Positions 25,711 to 33,674 of a DNA stretch of 64,000 bases are shown here, piece after piece. Source of the DNA: Hufsiella arboris (GTDB taxonomy: Bacteria; Bacteroidota; Bacteroidia; Sphingobacteriales; Sphingobacteriaceae); the NCBI RefSeq assembly GCF_009834875.1, contig NZ_WVHT01000001.1, positions 186,001-250,000 on the forward strand. The letters run 5' to 3'. Within the stretch, counting starts at the first letter, position 1. The number at the start of each line of letters is the position of its first letter. Under the pieces are notes generated by a model. That model was not told the DNA's origin. It did no database searches and saw only the letters and a program-made list of their open reading frames with translations. A program made the translations under genes and the position numbers.

Positions 25711-26832
25711 CTAATTTCCGGCCGCCGGCTTTACGTTCTTCACCTCCGAGCTGTCACGAATTTCTTCTGAAGCGGTTTTGACAAGTTGCTCGCCATCCTT
25801 CAGGTCGCCATAAACTTCCGTCTTGTCTTCCGCCGTTGTTCCGGTTTTAACAGGCACCCAAAAAGCTTTACTGCCCGACACCCGGATCACATAAATGCCT
25901 GTCGTTGAATTTAAAACTGCCGAAGAGGGAACAATAAAAGTGGGTATGCTGCCCTGCAGGGGAATATTCACTTCGGCAACCATTCCGGGTAAAAGCGTTT
26001 TATCCTTATTCAGTACGTCCATTTCAATACGTTGAGAACGCAGTTTACTATCGAGAGCGCCAGCCAACCGTGCGACTTTTGCCGTAAATTCCTGTCCGGG
26101 TAACGATTTTACGGTGAACTTAACCTCTGTTTTATTACTAAGTTCGCCGGAGTATAATTCGGGAACGCTTACCGCCAAACGCAGTTTACTTTGTTCCTGC
26201 AATGTAAACACAGGCATCTCAGATCCTTTTCCCGAAGGACCGACATAAGCGCCCGCGCTCACATTCCTTGAAGTAATAATGCCATCAAACGGCGCACGTA
26301 TCTGAAGGTAATTTTTAGTATCACTTACTTCCCGGTAGGCCGCACGTGCAGCGTCTAACTGCGCCTGATCGGACTTTTGTTTAGCCAATGCGACTTCCAG
26401 GTCATTCGCCGAAACGGTTCCCGGCGTTTTGCTTGTTTCAAGTAATCGGTTGTATGTCGCTTTGCTTGCGAGATATATTGCTTCCTGCGACTTCAGTCTC
26501 GATTCTGCTCCTGAAAGCTGAGCCGTATACTCCGGCGCTTCCAGGACTGCCAAAACCTGCCCGGTATGCACCTGGCTGCCAATATCTGCCTTCATTTTCT
26601 TTATAAAACTGCTGACCTTCGCATACAGATCCACCTGTTGATACGCGACAAGCTCACCAGGAATCTTTACAGATGAAGCCAGTTTTCCGCTGCTTACAGC
26701 CACCACTTCTGTAACCGGAGCCTGTGTAGTATCTGTTTTTTCCTGATCCTTGCTTTCAGATGATCCGCAAGCTTGAAGTAATATGGCCGCCGACAAGATG
26801 CTCAGTATATTTTTTATCGCAAACTTATTCAT
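25711..26832 (-). CDS. RND efflux periplasmic adaptor (membrane fusion lipoprotein)
   Basis: This 373-residue protein has a lipobox near ILLQACGSS (Cys about 22), a barrel-sandwich segment (VDLYAKVSSFIKKMKADIG; LQIRAPFDGIITSRNVSAGA), an alpha-hairpin between about 110 and 170, and beta-barrel and membrane-proximal domains to the end. It bridges the inner-membrane RND pump and the TolC channel. It is the last gene of the tolC-permease-adaptor operon, 11 bp after the permease gene. This order, with the outer-membrane factor first, is common in Bacteroidota. Confidence 0.93.
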   Translation of the reverse strand: MNKFAIKNILSILSAAILLQACGSSESKDQEKTDTTQAPVTEVVAVSSGKLASSVKIPGELVAYQQVDLYAKVSSFIKKMKADIGSQVHTGQVLAVLEAPEYTAQLSGAESRLKSQEAIYLASKATYNRLLETSKTPGTVSANDLEVALAKQKSDQAQLDAARAAYREVSDTKNYLQIRAPFDGIITSRNVSAGAYVGPSGKGSEMPVFTLQEQSKLRLAVSVPELYSGELSNKTEVKFTVKSLPGQEFTAKVARLAGALDSKLRSQRIEMDVLNKDKTLLPGMVAEVNIPLQGSIPTFIVPSSAVLNSTTGIYVIRVSGSKAFWVPVKTGTTAEDKTEVYGDLKDGEQLVKTASEEIRDSSEVKNVKPAAGN

Positions 26833-26843
26833 ATTGTAATTAG

Positions 26844-29800
26844 CTAATTTTTAAGGTTGATATAATGCAGGCTTTCTTCATCTTCCGGATCAAGGGAAAT
26901 ACTTTTTACGCTAGCCTTACCCTGTCCCCAGGCGAAAACCAAAGGTAAAATAAACAATGCGGCGAAGGTGGAAGCGATCAAACCGCCAACAACGGCCCGA
27001 CCCAATGGCGAAGACTGATCGCCCGCCTCACCCAAACCACTTGCCATTGGAATCATGCCTACTACCATCGCAAGCGCCGTCATCAGGATCGGACGCATCC
27101 GCAAGGCCGCAGCTTCTTTTGCCGACAGTACCGCGTTCGCATTCTGCATCCGTATTTCCTCTGCGTTTGTAATCAGCAATACGGCGTTGGAAATGGACAC
27201 ACCGACAGACATGATCATACCCATATATGACTGCAGATTGAGCGTTGAACCGGTTATTACGAGTAAAGTTAACGATCCGAGAATTACCGCAGGCACCGTC
27301 GCCAGTACAATTCCAGAAACTTTAAACGACTGGAAGTTGGCTGCCAGCATCAGGAATATAACTATAATAGCGACGAGTAACCCGCTTTCAAGGCTATCCA
27401 TTGTATCGGTAAGTGTGTTACTCAAACCGATCTGTTCCACGTTTAAACCGCGCGGCAGCTTTCCAAGATTTTTTATCGCGGCCTGAATGTCTTTTGATGC
27501 CGATCCAAGATCATGGTTATTTAGATTCGCTGTTACCGACAACAAGGGCGTGGCCCCGAGATTATCGTTTTCACCATAAGTAGTTCCGGGAGTAAGCGTC
27601 GCCACATCTCCCAAAACCGGACGGGCCGAATTTCTTGATAACGGAATTTCGCTCATATCGTTTATACTGCTCATCTTACTTTCGGGCACCTGTAACTGCA
27701 CTGCATAGCTGTATCCACCCTTTTCATCGATCCAGATATTTTTTTCCGTATACCGGGAAGACGATGTACTTGCGATCAGCGAACGCGAAATGTCGTTCAT
27801 GTCAACGCCAAGCTGTGCAGCTCGTACGCGATCTACTTCCACGTTAACAGCCGGATATTTTGTAGACTGTGACATTTGCACATCACGCAGGTAACTTATT
27901 TTATTCAGCTCTCCGATCAGCTTTTGCGCATATTGCTCATTCAGCTTCTTATTTCTTCCTGAGACACGCACTTCAACTGGTGTCGGTGAGCCCTGGCTAA
28001 GGATCTTGTCGGTTAATTCGATGGGCTCAAACGACACTTTTGTATACGGAAGTTTCTCTTTCAGGTCTTTGCGAATTTTTTCTTTTAAACCGTCAAGATC
28101 TGTTTTATAGCCTTCCGACAAACCAACCTGGATAACTGCCTCGTGCGGCTGAGCCATCCATAAAAATATCGGGCTGGTTGAAAACAAAGGAGGGTGTGTT
28201 CCGACATACGCGGAGGTAATCGAAATATTTTCAGGACCAGTTATTTTCTTTATTTCATTGATAGCGGTTAAAGTTCTTTTTTCCGTCAGCTCAATTCGTG
28301 TTCCTTCCGGCGCGCGTAAGCGGAGTTGGAACTGAGATCCGTTAACTTTTGGCAATACATCGCGGCCGATTGTACTCATCAACAGGAATGCCAGCAGGCA
28401 TGTGGCGACCAGGTAAACCGAAACGATGATTCTACGATAAGGCATCATTCGGTCGATGAACGCCATATAACGGCGCCTTAATTTCTCAAACCGGCTGATC
28501 TTTCCATTATTATCGCTGTCGGCTTTTTCAACAAGCGCTCTCTTCTGAGCCCAGGTATCATGCTCTTCTTTCGGATCTAAACCAGCCGCCGCATATTCCT
28601 CTGCATCGCTCAGGTTCTCCCCTTTGGCATTTTTATGATGATGCACTTTCATGATCCAGTTGGCCATCACCGGAACAAAGGTTTGCGCCAGAAAATAGGA
28701 AGCGACCATACTAAAGCCGATAGCAAGCGCCAATGGAAGAAAAAGCGATCCGGGAATGCCCCCCATCGTAAAGGCCGGTGCGAACACCGCCAGGATACAG
28801 AACAGGATCAGCAATTTTGGAAAGGCAATTTCCTTACATGCATCCCAAATTGCCAGCGCCTTGGGCTTATTCATATCGAGGTGCTGGTGGATATTTTCAA
28901 TTGTCACCGTACTTTCGTCAACCAAAATTCCTATGGCAAGAGCAAGGCCGCTAAGGGTCATGATGTTTATCGTCTGACCGAATAAACTTAAAAACAACAC
29001 CGACGATATAATCGCGACAGGAATCGTCAGGATTACAATCAGTGCTCCACGTAAATCTCCCAGGAACAGGAATACCATTAATCCGGTTAATATGGCTCCG
29101 ATAACACCTTCACTTATCAAGCTCTTTACTGAGTTCATTACATAAGCCGACTGGTCGAACTCATAACTTAGCTTAACATCATCAGGCAACTGGCTCTGCA
29201 TTTTCGGAAGCGCTTTTTTCAAACTCTGCACCACTTCCCAGGTAGAAGCGGATGCACTTTTCGCGACACTCAGGTAAACTGAGCGCTTGCCGTTTACTAG
29301 TCCGTAGCCCACAGTCACGTCGGCACCATCTTCAATTTTTGCCACATCCCGCAGGTACAGGTTCTGGACACCTCCTTTGAACAAGGGAATATTTTCGAAG
29401 TCCTTAATATTATGTACTGTTGTGTTCGTTGGCGTGATGTAGTTTTTATCGCCAATCCGCACATTCCCCGAAGGAGCAGTAAGATTGTTCAACCGCAATG
29501 CTTCCACCAGTTGATCGGGTGATAAATTATGCGAGCGAAGCTGCTCCGGGTCTACTTTCACCAAAACAGTCCGTACATTTCCACCAAACGGAGGCGCGGA
29601 AACGAGGCCTGGAATCGAGGTGAAAGAAGCTCTGACATACACATTGGCCAGATCGAGCAATTCATTGTTACTTCGCGTGGCGCTACTCAGCACGAGCTGG
29701 CCCACAGGGAGCGTGGAGGCATCAAAGCGAATAATAAAAGGTGGATTGGACCCTGGCGGAAAGATAGCCTGGATCCGGTTTGAAAACGCCGAAACCTCAG

Positions 29801-30116
29801 CAGCCGCCTGTGCCATGTTGGTGCCCGGATAAAAATTGATTTTCATCAGTGTCAATCCCTGGATATTCTTGGTTTCTATGCTCTTAACACCGTTAACGAA
29901 AAGCAGGATATTGATATACTGTTTTCCGAACATGGTTTCCATCTGCGAGGGCGTATAACCAGCGAATGGATGGGAAAGATAAATTACCGGCAGATCAAGT
30001 TTCGGGAAAATATCCACCTTGATCGTAGTCGCCGACTTGATCCCGAAGAAAAGCAAACCGGCAACCAGCACCATGATCGTTACAGGTTTACGAAGGGCGA
30101 AGCGTATTAAATTCAT
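26844..30116 (-). CDS. RND efflux permease (AcrB/HAE-like) with an EF-hand loop in the central cytoplasmic segment
   Basis: This 1090-residue protein has the duplicated RND layout: TM1 at about 13-31, a periplasmic porter region, a TM block at about 338-490, then the second half. The proton-relay position in TM4 reads GILVDESTVTIEN (Asp400, Glu401), where AcrB has two Asp. Between the two halves (about 490-560) the cytoplasmic loop is longer than in AcrB and contains a perfect EF-hand loop, DSDNNGKISRFE (533-544). It exports drugs, metals or lipids by proton antiport; metal-type CusA motifs were not seen. It is co-transcribed with TolC (8 bp upstream) and adaptor (11 bp downstream). Confidence 0.94.
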   Translation of the reverse strand: MNLIRFALRKPVTIMVLVAGLLFFGIKSATTIKVDIFPKLDLPVIYLSHPFAGYTPSQMETMFGKQYINILLFVNGVKSIETKNIQGLTLMKINFYPGTNMAQAAAEVSAFSNRIQAIFPPGSNPPFIIRFDASTLPVGQLVLSSATRSNNELLDLANVYVRASFTSIPGLVSAPPFGGNVRTVLVKVDPEQLRSHNLSPDQLVEALRLNNLTAPSGNVRIGDKNYITPTNTTVHNIKDFENIPLFKGGVQNLYLRDVAKIEDGADVTVGYGLVNGKRSVYLSVAKSASASTWEVVQSLKKALPKMQSQLPDDVKLSYEFDQSAYVMNSVKSLISEGVIGAILTGLMVFLFLGDLRGALIVILTIPVAIISSVLFLSLFGQTINIMTLSGLALAIGILVDESTVTIENIHQHLDMNKPKALAIWDACKEIAFPKLLILFCILAVFAPAFTMGGIPGSLFLPLALAIGFSMVASYFLAQTFVPVMANWIMKVHHHKNAKGENLSDAEEYAAAGLDPKEEHDTWAQKRALVEKADSDNNGKISRFEKLRRRYMAFIDRMMPYRRIIVSVYLVATCLLAFLLMSTIGRDVLPKVNGSQFQLRLRAPEGTRIELTEKRTLTAINEIKKITGPENISITSAYVGTHPPLFSTSPIFLWMAQPHEAVIQVGLSEGYKTDLDGLKEKIRKDLKEKLPYTKVSFEPIELTDKILSQGSPTPVEVRVSGRNKKLNEQYAQKLIGELNKISYLRDVQMSQSTKYPAVNVEVDRVRAAQLGVDMNDISRSLIASTSSSRYTEKNIWIDEKGGYSYAVQLQVPESKMSSINDMSEIPLSRNSARPVLGDVATLTPGTTYGENDNLGATPLLSVTANLNNHDLGSASKDIQAAIKNLGKLPRGLNVEQIGLSNTLTDTMDSLESGLLVAIIVIFLMLAANFQSFKVSGIVLATVPAVILGSLTLLVITGSTLNLQSYMGMIMSVGVSISNAVLLITNAEEIRMQNANAVLSAKEAAALRMRPILMTALAMVVGMIPMASGLGEAGDQSSPLGRAVVGGLIASTFAALFILPLVFAWGQGKASVKSISLDPEDEESLHYINLKN
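28485..28520 (-). other. EF-hand calcium-binding loop inside the RND permease
   Basis: Codons 533-544 encode D-S-D-N-N-G-K-I-S-R-F-E. Positions 1, 3, 5, 6, 8 and 12 all match the canonical EF-hand loop (Asp, Asp, Asn, Gly, Ile, Glu). Flanking sequence (RALVEKA before, KLRRRYMAF after) could form the entering and leaving helices. Only one loop is present. Confidence 0.65.
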
Positions 30117-30124
30117 ATCGCGGG

Positions 30125-31522
30125 TTAAAGTTCGTTAGCAAATAAATTGAAATCGCCGGAAGCTGCCGCACGCAAGAGTAAGGCCTGCCAGATATTGTTA
30201 TAGGCGATATCACGATCAGTTTCTGCACGTATCAACGTATATCGCGCCTGGCTTACGTCCACAAGGTTGGTTAAGCCATTTTTATAAAGCACAGACTTTT
30301 GTATCCAGGCTTCTGATGCAGCTTTGAGCTGCACGGGAGCTTCGTTATAATTCTGTAAAGCATTCCTAATTTTCGTATCGGAAAGGGTCAGCTGTGCGTT
30401 AAGCTCCTGGTTAGTCAGGTCGTATTCCTGCTGCAAACCCTGACTGATATAGCGCTGCGCCTTCACCTGTTGTGAAATCCGCAGAGGCTGTGTTAGGTTC
30501 CATGTAAGCCCGATACCTACCAGGTAATTTGTACGCGTGGGGTTTACTCCGTCAAAGTAATTTTGCGTAAACGATGTTTGATCGGCCGCGTAGTTATTAT
30601 TAAACCCTGAACCACGTGTTTGCAGAACACCTACGAAGGTAAAAGCGGGATAGTTGAAACTTCGATAATAACTCGTTTGGTTCTGGCTGATCTCAACAAG
30701 ACTTTTATAATATTTAAGCAAGGGATGATTTTCCGTTGAGCCGGCAGATACCAGGATATCTTTTGGGATAGATGACAAAAACACACTGTCGAGCCTGAAC
30801 TCCTGGGGCTGCATATTCAGCAGAACAGCCAGATTTTTTGCCTGCTCCTGTTCGTAATCCACTGCTTTTGTAAGAGTAATTCTTGCGCCAGAAACTTCGG
30901 CGCTGGCCTGGGAAGAATCTACGCCTGCAATCAGACCGTTTTTTACGCGTGTAACTACGATATGCCTGAAAGTATCGGCCCGGCTTAGGTTTTTGCGGTA
31001 AGATTCAGTAAGCTTTTGCGCTGCCAAAAGATTGAGATAAGCAGAAGCCACTTTTACCTTTTGCTGAAATATCTCCTGCTGCAGATCGTTGTTGTCACGC
31101 TCATAAACCGCCTCAGCCGTTTTTATCCTGGCCTTCGCACGCCCAAATGCAAAAAAATCCCAGTTGACATTGGTTAGATACAATGCACCAAAGGATGCAT
31201 TCCAGTTCTGATGATCGAGCGGCAGTCCTGAAGACGCCACACCGAGACCGCCAAAACTGTATAAAGGACCATTTTGTCCGTTAATAGTGCCATAGTCCTG
31301 CTGGGCGCCGATACTAAGATTAGGCAGGTAATCGCGTTTGGCCTGAGTTACACCCGCTTTGGAAGCCTCTGCATAATATGACTTGGCCTTGATCGTTTTG
31401 TAATTATCTACCGCAAGCTGAAGGGCTTCTTTCATCGAAAGCTGTTGCTGAGCGTTTACAAAACCGGCATATAAAAAAATCGAAAGGAATAGTGTCGTTC
31501 TGATTATCTTCATGTAAGACAA
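30125..31522 (-). CDS. TolC-family outer-membrane efflux channel
   Basis: This 465-residue protein has a signal peptide (FLSIFLYAGFVNAQQQ) and the two-repeat OEP fold: LSMKEALQLAVDNYKTIKAK at the start, long helices with NLLAAQKLTESYRKNLSRAD, and the repeat end GLTNLVDVSQARYTLIRAET. It forms the exit duct of the tripartite pump. It is the first gene of the efflux operon; its promoter carries the same direct repeats as the two-component genes upstream, which points to direct control by that response regulator. Confidence 0.93.
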   Translation of the reverse strand: MSYMKIIRTTLFLSIFLYAGFVNAQQQLSMKEALQLAVDNYKTIKAKSYYAEASKAGVTQAKRDYLPNLSIGAQQDYGTINGQNGPLYSFGGLGVASSGLPLDHQNWNASFGALYLTNVNWDFFAFGRAKARIKTAEAVYERDNNDLQQEIFQQKVKVASAYLNLLAAQKLTESYRKNLSRADTFRHIVVTRVKNGLIAGVDSSQASAEVSGARITLTKAVDYEQEQAKNLAVLLNMQPQEFRLDSVFLSSIPKDILVSAGSTENHPLLKYYKSLVEISQNQTSYYRSFNYPAFTFVGVLQTRGSGFNNNYAADQTSFTQNYFDGVNPTRTNYLVGIGLTWNLTQPLRISQQVKAQRYISQGLQQEYDLTNQELNAQLTLSDTKIRNALQNYNEAPVQLKAASEAWIQKSVLYKNGLTNLVDVSQARYTLIRAETDRDIAYNNIWQALLLRAAASGDFNLFANEL

Positions 31523-31551
31523 TTTTTGCGTGTACGCGTGACGTAATGCCG

Positions 31552-31585
31552 CAAAACTATCCGATCATTTTGAAGCAATTTTGAA
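31552..31585 (-). promoter_or_regulatory. Efflux operon promoter with response-regulator direct repeats
   Basis: On the minus strand two TTCAAAA half-sites (31579-31585 and 31568-31574) lie 11 bp apart, then 8 bp, then TAGTTTTG (31552-31559), which matches the TAnnTTTG -7 box. No proper -33 box is present, so the repeats probably take its place as activator sites for the OmpR-type regulator encoded upstream. Confidence 0.7.
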
Positions 31586-31629
31586 GTCTTGATACAAAAT
31601 AGAAAACTGTATAAAAAAATGACGATTGA

Positions 31630-32955
31630 TTAAACAATAGCCGGCGAATCCAATAAAATTCCGACCTGCTTTTCTTCAAAGGCTTCAGCAATAGCGGGCG
31701 ATTTAGTAAACTCCACCTGAAGAATATGATAGCCTTCAAGATAGTTATAGGAAATATGAAACCCGTTTACGTTGCAAATCTGTTTGACGATAGCCAGTCC
31801 GAGACCAACGCTCTCCGCGCACTGGTTGCTTTTCTTAAACCGCTGAAATAACTGCTCCGCGGGAATTTCCAGTGGTGACCCTGTATTCTTAATCGTTAAT
31901 GAGTGTGAAGTAAGAGTCACGACTATAGAGCCGTTCTCCCAATTATAACGAATGGCATTACTCAACAGGTTAGTCAGCAGAATTTCGGCAAGCGAGGGAT
32001 GAATGCGTAGCGAAACTTTCTTGTCGACGTTTTTAACGAGGCTGATATTTTTGAGTTGAATCCAGTTTTCGAAAGAAGCCAATACACTATTGGTTATTTT
32101 GCAGAAGCGAAGATCTTCGGCCGCTTCATATTCAAGGTTTTCCAGCTTGGTAAGCAGCAGCAGTGAGCGGTTAATCCTGACTAGTTTCTCGATCGCATTT
32201 TGCATATCGCCGATCAGGTCAGCCTGCTCGGCACTAATGTCTGTTTCAGCAAACAGCTCAAGTTTACTCCTGATGATTGCCAGCGGAGTTTGCAGTTCAT
32301 GCGACGCGTTCTCACTAAACTCCTTCATTTTTGAATAATCATCAGCAGCTTTATCCGTCATCTTTTTCAGGAAACTGTTCAATTGCCTGAACTCTTTGGT
32401 ATTCGTTTCAGGCAGCTCCAGCTTTTCGCGCTGCCGCAGGCTGAAAACTTGTATAGTATCGAGCGTTTTTTGAAAGGATGAAAGTATGTATTTAGAAACC
32501 AGGCGAGTAGTTATAACGATCAATAAAATAATTAAGGCCATTTTCCAGAAAACAGCCCGCAGCATGCCATTTAATATTTCCTTACTTTTGGTAACATCGT
32601 TATACGATGATATTTTATAGTAGCTATCATTTATGTTATAAAAAGAGCTTACCGTCAGCTTGCATTCGTTTTGATTTCTATTGCGGTTAAACCGCTGTTC
32701 TTCACTTACCTCGACCTTATTTACCGGCAGCGCTGCCACCCGTTCAATTGTAATGGGATGACTGATGGTGAACTGCTGAGGAGCAGCACCGCTCTTTAGC
32801 TGCATGGCAATATGATTGTTCAGATCAGTAAGCCGAACCGTTTCTGACGTATCCATCCTTTCCTTGATGCTGCGGTACGAGATGAACATGCTGACCGGGG
32901 TAACCAACACAAAAATTATGATGAACCAGATGGTAAATTTGTCCACTAACCTCAT
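31630..32955 (-). CDS. Sensor histidine kinase of the efflux-linked two-component system
   Basis: This 441-residue protein has TM1 at about 9-27, an extracytoplasmic domain to about 138, TM2 at about 139-158, then a HisKA domain with the phospho-acceptor in SENASHELQTPLAIIRS, an N-box NLLSNAIRYN and a G-box ESVGLGLAIVKQI. The ATG overlaps the end of the response regulator by 4 bp (ATGA), so the pair is translationally coupled. It lies 107 bp upstream of the TolC gene. The signal is unknown; envelope stress or a pump substrate would be typical. Confidence 0.93.
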   Translation of the reverse strand: MRLVDKFTIWFIIIFVLVTPVSMFISYRSIKERMDTSETVRLTDLNNHIAMQLKSGAAPQQFTISHPITIERVAALPVNKVEVSEEQRFNRNRNQNECKLTVSSFYNINDSYYKISSYNDVTKSKEILNGMLRAVFWKMALIILLIVITTRLVSKYILSSFQKTLDTIQVFSLRQREKLELPETNTKEFRQLNSFLKKMTDKAADDYSKMKEFSENASHELQTPLAIIRSKLELFAETDISAEQADLIGDMQNAIEKLVRINRSLLLLTKLENLEYEAAEDLRFCKITNSVLASFENWIQLKNISLVKNVDKKVSLRIHPSLAEILLTNLLSNAIRYNWENGSIVVTLTSHSLTIKNTGSPLEIPAEQLFQRFKKSNQCAESVGLGLAIVKQICNVNGFHISYNYLEGYHILQVEFTKSPAIAEAFEEKQVGILLDSPAIV

Positions 32956-33635
32956 ATCGCTGTCGATTTAAATCTGTATCCAAGCCCGTAAACCGTGTCG
33001 ATATAATCTACACCGTTTAATGAACTGATTTTCCTGCGCAGGTTTTTTACGTGCTGATACACAAAATCCAGGTTCGCCAGGTTGTCGGTATAATCACCCC
33101 ATAAATGTTCGGCGATGGCCTGCCGCGATAAAACCCTGTTTTTGTTTACAAGAAAGTACAAAAGTAGTTCAAATTCTTTACGTGTAATGTCAAGAAATTT
33201 ACTGTTCACAGTTGCTTCCAGCGTGTCGGTATTCAACGCAATTTCGTTAAACGTGATGACATGATCGCCATTTAACTGCTTACGGCGGTAGATAGCACGA
33301 AGTCTTGCCTGCAACTCTGACAAGTGGAAAGGTTTGGTGATGTAATCGTCGGCGCCTCGCTCCAGGCCCACGATTTTGTCGTCCAGTGAATCTTTGGCTG
33401 AGATGATCAACACGCCGCTGCTGATATTTTTAGTCCGTATGAATTTCAGGATTTCCAGGCCGTTGCCATCGGGAAGCATGATATCCAGCAAAATACAGTC
33501 GTAGGTGTACTGCGAAAGTTTATCGACAGCCTGCTCATAATTTTCTGCGTGCTCGCAAATATTATTATCCTGCGATAAAAATTCCAGCATACTTGCAGCC
33601 AGCTCCTTATTGTCTTCAACGGCTAGTATCTTCAT
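32952..33635 (-). CDS. OmpR/PhoB-family response regulator
   Basis: The protein has 227 residues from ATG 33635; the frame runs up to 33680, but the receiver domain begins directly at MKILAVEDNKE. The phospho-acceptor is Asp51 in DCILLDIMLPDGNG, with Lys in ITKPFHLSEL. The C-terminal winged helix (FDLLLYF-like, YQHVKNLRRKISSL, TVYGLGYRF) is of the OmpR class, which binds direct repeats. Exactly such repeats lie upstream of this gene and of the efflux operon. The -7 box ends 5 bp before the ATG, so the mRNA may be leaderless. Confidence 0.93.
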   Translation of the reverse strand: MKILAVEDNKELAASMLEFLSQDNNICEHAENYEQAVDKLSQYTYDCILLDIMLPDGNGLEILKFIRTKNISSGVLIISAKDSLDDKIVGLERGADDYITKPFHLSELQARLRAIYRRKQLNGDHVITFNEIALNTDTLEATVNSKFLDITRKEFELLLYFLVNKNRVLSRQAIAEHLWGDYTDNLANLDFVYQHVKNLRRKISSLNGVDYIDTVYGLGYRFKSTAI

Positions 33636-33640
33636 ACTCA

Positions 33641-33674
33641 CAAAGATAAAACGGAATTCTGAACGAATTTTGAA
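33641..33674 (-). promoter_or_regulatory. Autoregulatory promoter of the response regulator gene
   Basis: On the minus strand TTCAAAA (33668-33674) and TTCAGAA (33657-33663) lie 11 bp apart, then 8 bp, then TATCTTTG (33641-33648, TAnnTTTG). Repeat period, orientation and distance to the -7 box are identical to those before the TolC gene. Confidence 0.7.

Follow-up and report, generated by a model that had tools for sequence, protein, structure and literature searches.

The tolC promoter and the regulator promoter of a Hufsiella arboris locus carry the same pair of TTCAAAA-type half-sites, repeated directly every 11 bp and followed at 8 bp by a TAnnTTTG box. In all likelihood these repeats serve as operator for the OmpR/PhoB-type regulator encoded at 32952-33635, which would switch on its own operon together with the adjoining tolC-RND-adaptor operon. 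The genes of the locus are listed below in coordinates of the window, i.e. the whole stretch of 64,000 nucleotides that was analysed.

32952..33635, minus strand: response regulator of the OmpR/PhoB type, 227 aa (scores above cut-off for PF00072 and PF00486)
31630..32955, minus strand: sensor histidine kinase, PorY family (PF00512, PF02518; NF052314)
30125..31513, minus strand: TolC-type outer-membrane efflux protein (PF02321)
26844..30116, minus strand: RND efflux pump (PF00873, 1.4e-177)
25711..26832, minus strand: RND periplasmic adaptor (PF16576 and PF13437; TIGR01730 above cut-off)

The regulator has the composition of the OmpR/PhoB type, a receiver domain followed by a Trans_reg_C winged helix, and its recognition helix, positioned by alignment, is NLDFVYQHVKNLRRKI. 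Assignment to CreB (NF008296, 141 bits against a cut-off of 273), to PmrA (NF007928, 163.5 against 330 bits), to PhoB (TIGR02154, 150.9 against 296.2 bits) or to the heavy-metal CopR group (TIGR01387, 138.2 against 279.2 bits) was rejected. The kinase reached 381 bits with NF052314, above the curated cut-off of 350, PorY being a subfamily name only; a PorY-family kinase is here paired with an OmpR-type regulator. The same genome encodes, on contig C53, a paralogous regulator that is 51% identical and has a similar recognition helix. Residues 533-544, in the central part of the RND pump, form an EF-hand-like loop (DSDNNGKISRFE), found in similar form (approximately DxNxDGKxSxFE) in most, not all, orthologues and representing a possible calcium-binding site. 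A prolyl oligopeptidase-family gene (PF02897/PF00326; 33741-35858, plus strand) is divergent from the regulator; because only about 105 bp separate the two start codons, the operator could act on this gene too.

Both promoters are on the minus strand and their sequences were read directly, as TTCAAAA ttgc TTCAAAA tgatcgga TAGTTTTG for tolC and TTCAAAA ttcg TTCAGAA ttccgttt TATCTTTG tgagt ATG(33635) for the regulator.

33668..33674, minus strand: regulator promoter, upstream half-site TTCAAAA (about -38 to -32)
33657..33663, minus strand: regulator promoter, downstream half-site TTCAGAA (about -27 to -21)
33641..33648, minus strand: regulator promoter, -7 box TATCTTTG, 8 bp past the repeat and 5 nt before the ATG
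31579..31585, minus strand: tolC promoter, upstream half-site TTCAAAA (from the sequence and orthologous promoters)
31568..31574, minus strand: tolC promoter, downstream half-site TTCAAAA (from the sequence and orthologous promoters)
31552..31559, minus strand: tolC promoter, -7 box TAGTTTTG, 8 bp past the repeat and 38 nt before the ATG at 31513

They share the pattern TTCARAA-N4-TTCARAA-N8-TAnnTTTG. When the sequence was read again, the original prediction proved correct to the base at both promoters, in its repeats, their period of 11 bp and the gap of 8 bp. It also says that neither promoter has a usable -33 element, which holds literally: that place is taken by the first half-site, and the tolC promoter offers nothing but a TTG with a 16-bp gap as a candidate. 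As an argument for an activator, the absent -33 element is weak and non-diagnostic evidence in this phylum, since the element is faint throughout F. johnsoniae, where it is barely visible genome-wide (PMC6847099). A sigma-70 promoter scan is uninformative for Bacteroidota.

The -7 box of the regulator ends 5 nt upstream of the ATG. The simplest reading predicts a leaderless regulator mRNA, because the receiver domain begins at the ATG at 33635 and a later start codon is unlikely. Among 31 well-scoring regulators with a DFxYxH helix, the box lies 4-5 nt from the start codon in 13 and at most 9 nt from it in 16. Such short distances would predict leaderless mRNAs for about half of these regulators, compared with 5.5% leaderless mRNAs in F. 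psychrophilum (PMC9723704); in F. johnsoniae the distance from box to transcription start is 4-5 nt (PMC6847099).

The host genome was analysed as a whole by pattern searches. TTCARAA-N4-TTCARAA occurs exactly seven times in its 4.8 Mb; TAnnTTTG follows at 8 bp in two of these seven, namely the tolC and regulator promoters, which are the sole perfect matches in the genome. When up to 3 mismatches were allowed, the 34-base pattern gave 7 matches, including both promoters with 0 mismatches, versus 6 for the reversed-pattern control, and no further strong site was found beyond background in this search. A large regulon of exact sites was rejected on this ground, and the exact-site regulon of the host looks like two promoters, since the remaining matches are about as many as the reversed control gives. 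The idea that the repeats are chance or compositional AT-rich elements, A/T tracts at -18 and -28 that happen to resemble them, is strongly disfavoured, to the point that we give it almost no weight. F. johnsoniae promoters do contain AT-rich motifs, with centres at -18 and -28, near the second half-site (PMC6847099), but the repeat was obtained neither from dinucleotide shuffles or reversed patterns nor from homologous promoters that lack the regulator, and across diverged promoters the C and A of TTCA show little or no variation.

Homologues were examined in the genomes of the family (399 genomes, 25 genera). Close relatives of the regulator have a patchy distribution, being present in 19 of the 399 genomes and 8 of the 25 genera; the patchiness of the regulator-kinase-efflux block (25711-33635 of the window) suggests transfer or frequent loss. 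A scan of genome contigs returned mainly remote OmpR homologues, and only six Bacteroidota loci were taken from it. Among the fetched loci, the order and orientation regulator-kinase-TolC-RND-adaptor seen in the window was found in 14 further genomes, all of which have the repeat upstream of tolC. The repeat also precedes 18 of 20 orthologous regulator genes; at the other two (L048 and L067) it was not found within 260 bp. The scan of related genomes suggested with the original prediction thus turned out in its favour, the repeat and the 8-bp spacing being kept before orthologous regulators and tolC genes alike.

Alignment of the promoters on the repeat revealed nearly invariant cTTCAAAWTT and cTTCAAAAT half-sites, with an information content of up to 2 bits, against about 0.1 bit in the sequence that flanks them in the regulator promoters. 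When the offset of TAnnTTTG was scanned, each of the two promoter sets gave a single clear peak, at exactly 8 bp, with means of 4.6 and 5.1 of 6 versus 0.8-2.7 at other offsets. At the regulator promoter itself, the -7 box comes near the consensus. Among the orthologues, most tolC promoters combine an imperfect -7 box with a near-perfect operator; in several genomes of genus g15 the tolC box is degraded (e.g. TCAATTTC), so that the 8-bp gap is found there without a consensus box. In the window and in its orthologues, one and the same operator sequence stands upstream of both operons, that of the regulator and that of the transporter, and 11-bp direct repeats are conserved at regulator and target promoters.

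TolC homologues were gathered from the family, L213 being omitted as its upstream region is not covered. Where tolC lies directly behind the kinase gene, the repeat was present in 16/16 cases and scored 12-14 of 14 positions. In contrast, 31 of the 32 homologous tolC genes that lack the pair scored at the level of shuffled sequences (8-11 of 14), and the remaining one scored 12. The difference (16/16 versus at most 1/32) has a Fisher p of 7.5e-12, a value in which independence is overstated, the sequences being related. The contrast is present within genera too. One genome (G036) has a tolC copy of each kind, and in G313 proteins 65-66% (TolC) and 77% (RND) identical are encoded without an adjoining regulator-kinase pair and without the repeat.

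The reverse situation was met in three genomes (L040, L045 and L046), in which the regulator-kinase pair has no pump and is followed by a gene for a TonB-type outer-membrane protein of about 815 aa (domains OMP_b-brl_3 and CarboxypepD_reg in the one protein scanned). The promoter of this replacement gene contains four half-sites with an 11-bp period, exactly 8 bp from a TAnnTTTG-like box; the respective sequences agree at 28, 23 and 27 of 34 positions (shuffle p 0/2000, 0.0015 and 0/2000). The operator accompanies the regulator and not the pump. The two-part site is very probably the regulator's own control site, because it is kept where regulator and pump adjoin and absent at pumps without the regulator, and comparative genomics makes binding by the adjoining regulator a well-supported prediction. 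The repeats might instead serve another regulator, such as a paralogous OmpR-type protein, the adjoining one being incidental. Related repeats with an 11-bp period also stand before many other OmpR-type regulators whose helix is similar, so that cross-binding is conceivable, and the 51% identical paralogue could share the site; nevertheless, the TTCAAAA repeat at tolC tracks the regulator-kinase pair and follows it to a different target in the three genomes, which makes such an arrangement highly improbable.

With the adjoining regulator as the preferred binder, an OmpR/PhoB dimer would most likely act as a class II-type activator in an autoregulated system. The PorY-family kinase would phosphorylate the regulator, a dimer of which would bind head-to-tail to the two 11-bp-spaced half-sites (consensus cTTCAAAWTTkCTTCAAAAT), at about -38 to -21. 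The bound dimer would recruit the Bacteroidota sigma-A RNA polymerase to the TAnnTTTG box 8 bp downstream. The regulator would thereby turn on its own operon, as positive autoregulation from a probably leaderless mRNA, and would turn on the tolC-RND-adaptor efflux operon as well. Binding sites of the OmpR subfamily typically consist of direct repeats separated by 4-5 nt (PMC2689224). Flavobacterium promoters have the -7 box at -12 to -5, and transcription starts 4-5 nt after it (PMC6847099; PMC9723704). This position of the box places the half-sites at about -38 to -32 and -27 to -21. Such positions are occupied by class II-type OmpR/PhoB activators.

The sign of the effect deserves separate consideration. 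The regulator may bind and repress, blocking RNA polymerase across the -33/spacer region until a signal relieves the repression. Repressors also use this position, where the half-sites overlap the core promoter, and an activator is maybe unnecessary at the regulator's own promoter, given its near-consensus -7 box and a -33 element that is faint in Flavobacterium anyway. However, repression can do without fixed phasing relative to the -7 box, the four half-sites upstream of the replacement gene, at an identical 8-bp distance, resemble an activator array, and the tolC -7 boxes are mostly non-consensus despite the near-perfect operator. We therefore consider repression unlikely. Activation would be the likelier sign, because of the position of the half-sites and because imperfect tolC boxes beside a near-perfect operator suggest a promoter that needs help. 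The original prediction held that the regulator activates its own gene and the RND pump by replacing the -33 contact: the co-occurrence with the regulator-kinase pair and the transfer to another target support the regulator as the binder, whereas activation and the replacement of -33 are what we infer.

Related repeats were found beyond the orthologues. Degenerate TNCARAW repeats gave 38 matches at 33 regulator loci versus 0 in the reversed control, recurring at the regulator promoter and directly after the kinase gene. An unbiased scan of the class (295 genomes) gave 19 matches in 15 genomes, again versus 0 in the reversed control; with one mismatch allowed, most genomes of the class gave none. 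Nearly all matches of the class scan are intergenic, the one at L299 being within an ORF and maybe spurious. Several adjoin OmpR-type regulator or kinase genes, and others precede genes for PAP2, PepSY-like, sulfatase-fold or other membrane proteins. Related repeats before PAP2-family phosphatase or TonB-type outer-membrane genes were noticed at L053 (at -58 and -1107 from its regulator), L058, L297 and L311, and at L053 the -7 box is 4 nt from the ATG of the PAP2 gene. These repeats at PAP2 and TonB-type genes hint at an envelope-modification regulon.

Repeat scores were higher for regulators with the helix DFxYx[HQ] than for those of the FVDVH type (75 versus 15 genes, p 5e-5). This contrast is supporting and not independent evidence of a link between helix and operator, because the orthologues of the regulator described here are among the DFxYx[HQ] genes. 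Comparison by eye of helix residues and bases is suggestive, YQH going with CAAA and Y[TSA]H with CAGA. It is about an even question whether TNCARAW-N4-TNCARAW-N8-TAnnTTTG is a general operator of a large Bacteroidota clade of OmpR-type regulators (helix DFxYx[HQ]xKNLRKK) that governs neighbouring envelope functions with a fixed activator-promoter geometry, the regulator mRNAs being often leaderless. If this is true, the envelope targets of the clade would comprise efflux pumps, TonB-type outer-membrane proteins, PAP2 phosphatases and PepSY-like proteins, and the fixed geometry would suit the unusual sigma factor of the phylum.

In the open-licence literature we found no description of this Bacteroidota operator and no paper that brings together TAnnTTTG, a response regulator and a direct repeat; the operator is apparently new for Bacteroidota. 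Little is known of how activators cooperate with the divergent sigma factor of Bacteroidota (TAnnTTTG, faint -33), and the fixed distance from operator to -7 box, together with homologous promoters with and without the operator, provides a directly testable system. The operator also permits sequence-based target prediction for many uncharacterised two-component systems of the phylum.

The layout, in which an autoregulated two-component system and an adjacent transporter are preceded by direct repeats, is already known as a kind. Like PmrA/BasR and PhoB, the regulator has a receiver domain and a winged helix (PF00072 and PF00486), and BasR (8jo2) is among its closest solved relatives. The PmrA/BasR box and the pho box of PhoB are 11-bp direct repeats just upstream of a -10-type element and mediate class II-type activation; the half-site, the sigma factor and the promoter differ here. 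In the same phylum, PhoP of Riemerella anatipestifer is likewise a two-component regulator that binds upstream of its own operon, but its DAP-seq motif is TTTAACA with 583 peaks across the genome, compared with an apparent local regulon of two promoters here (PMC9603813). The nearest half-site found is that of the cre/blr tag of CreB/BlrA, TTCAC-N6-TTCAC upstream of creD, which similarly combines an OmpR-family regulator, a TTCA motif repeated directly every 11 bp and a neighbouring envelope gene (PMC4689548). In contrast to this tag, the half-site here is TTCAAAA(TT), a Bacteroidota TAnnTTTG promoter follows at a fixed 8 bp, and the repeat also precedes the regulator's own operon.
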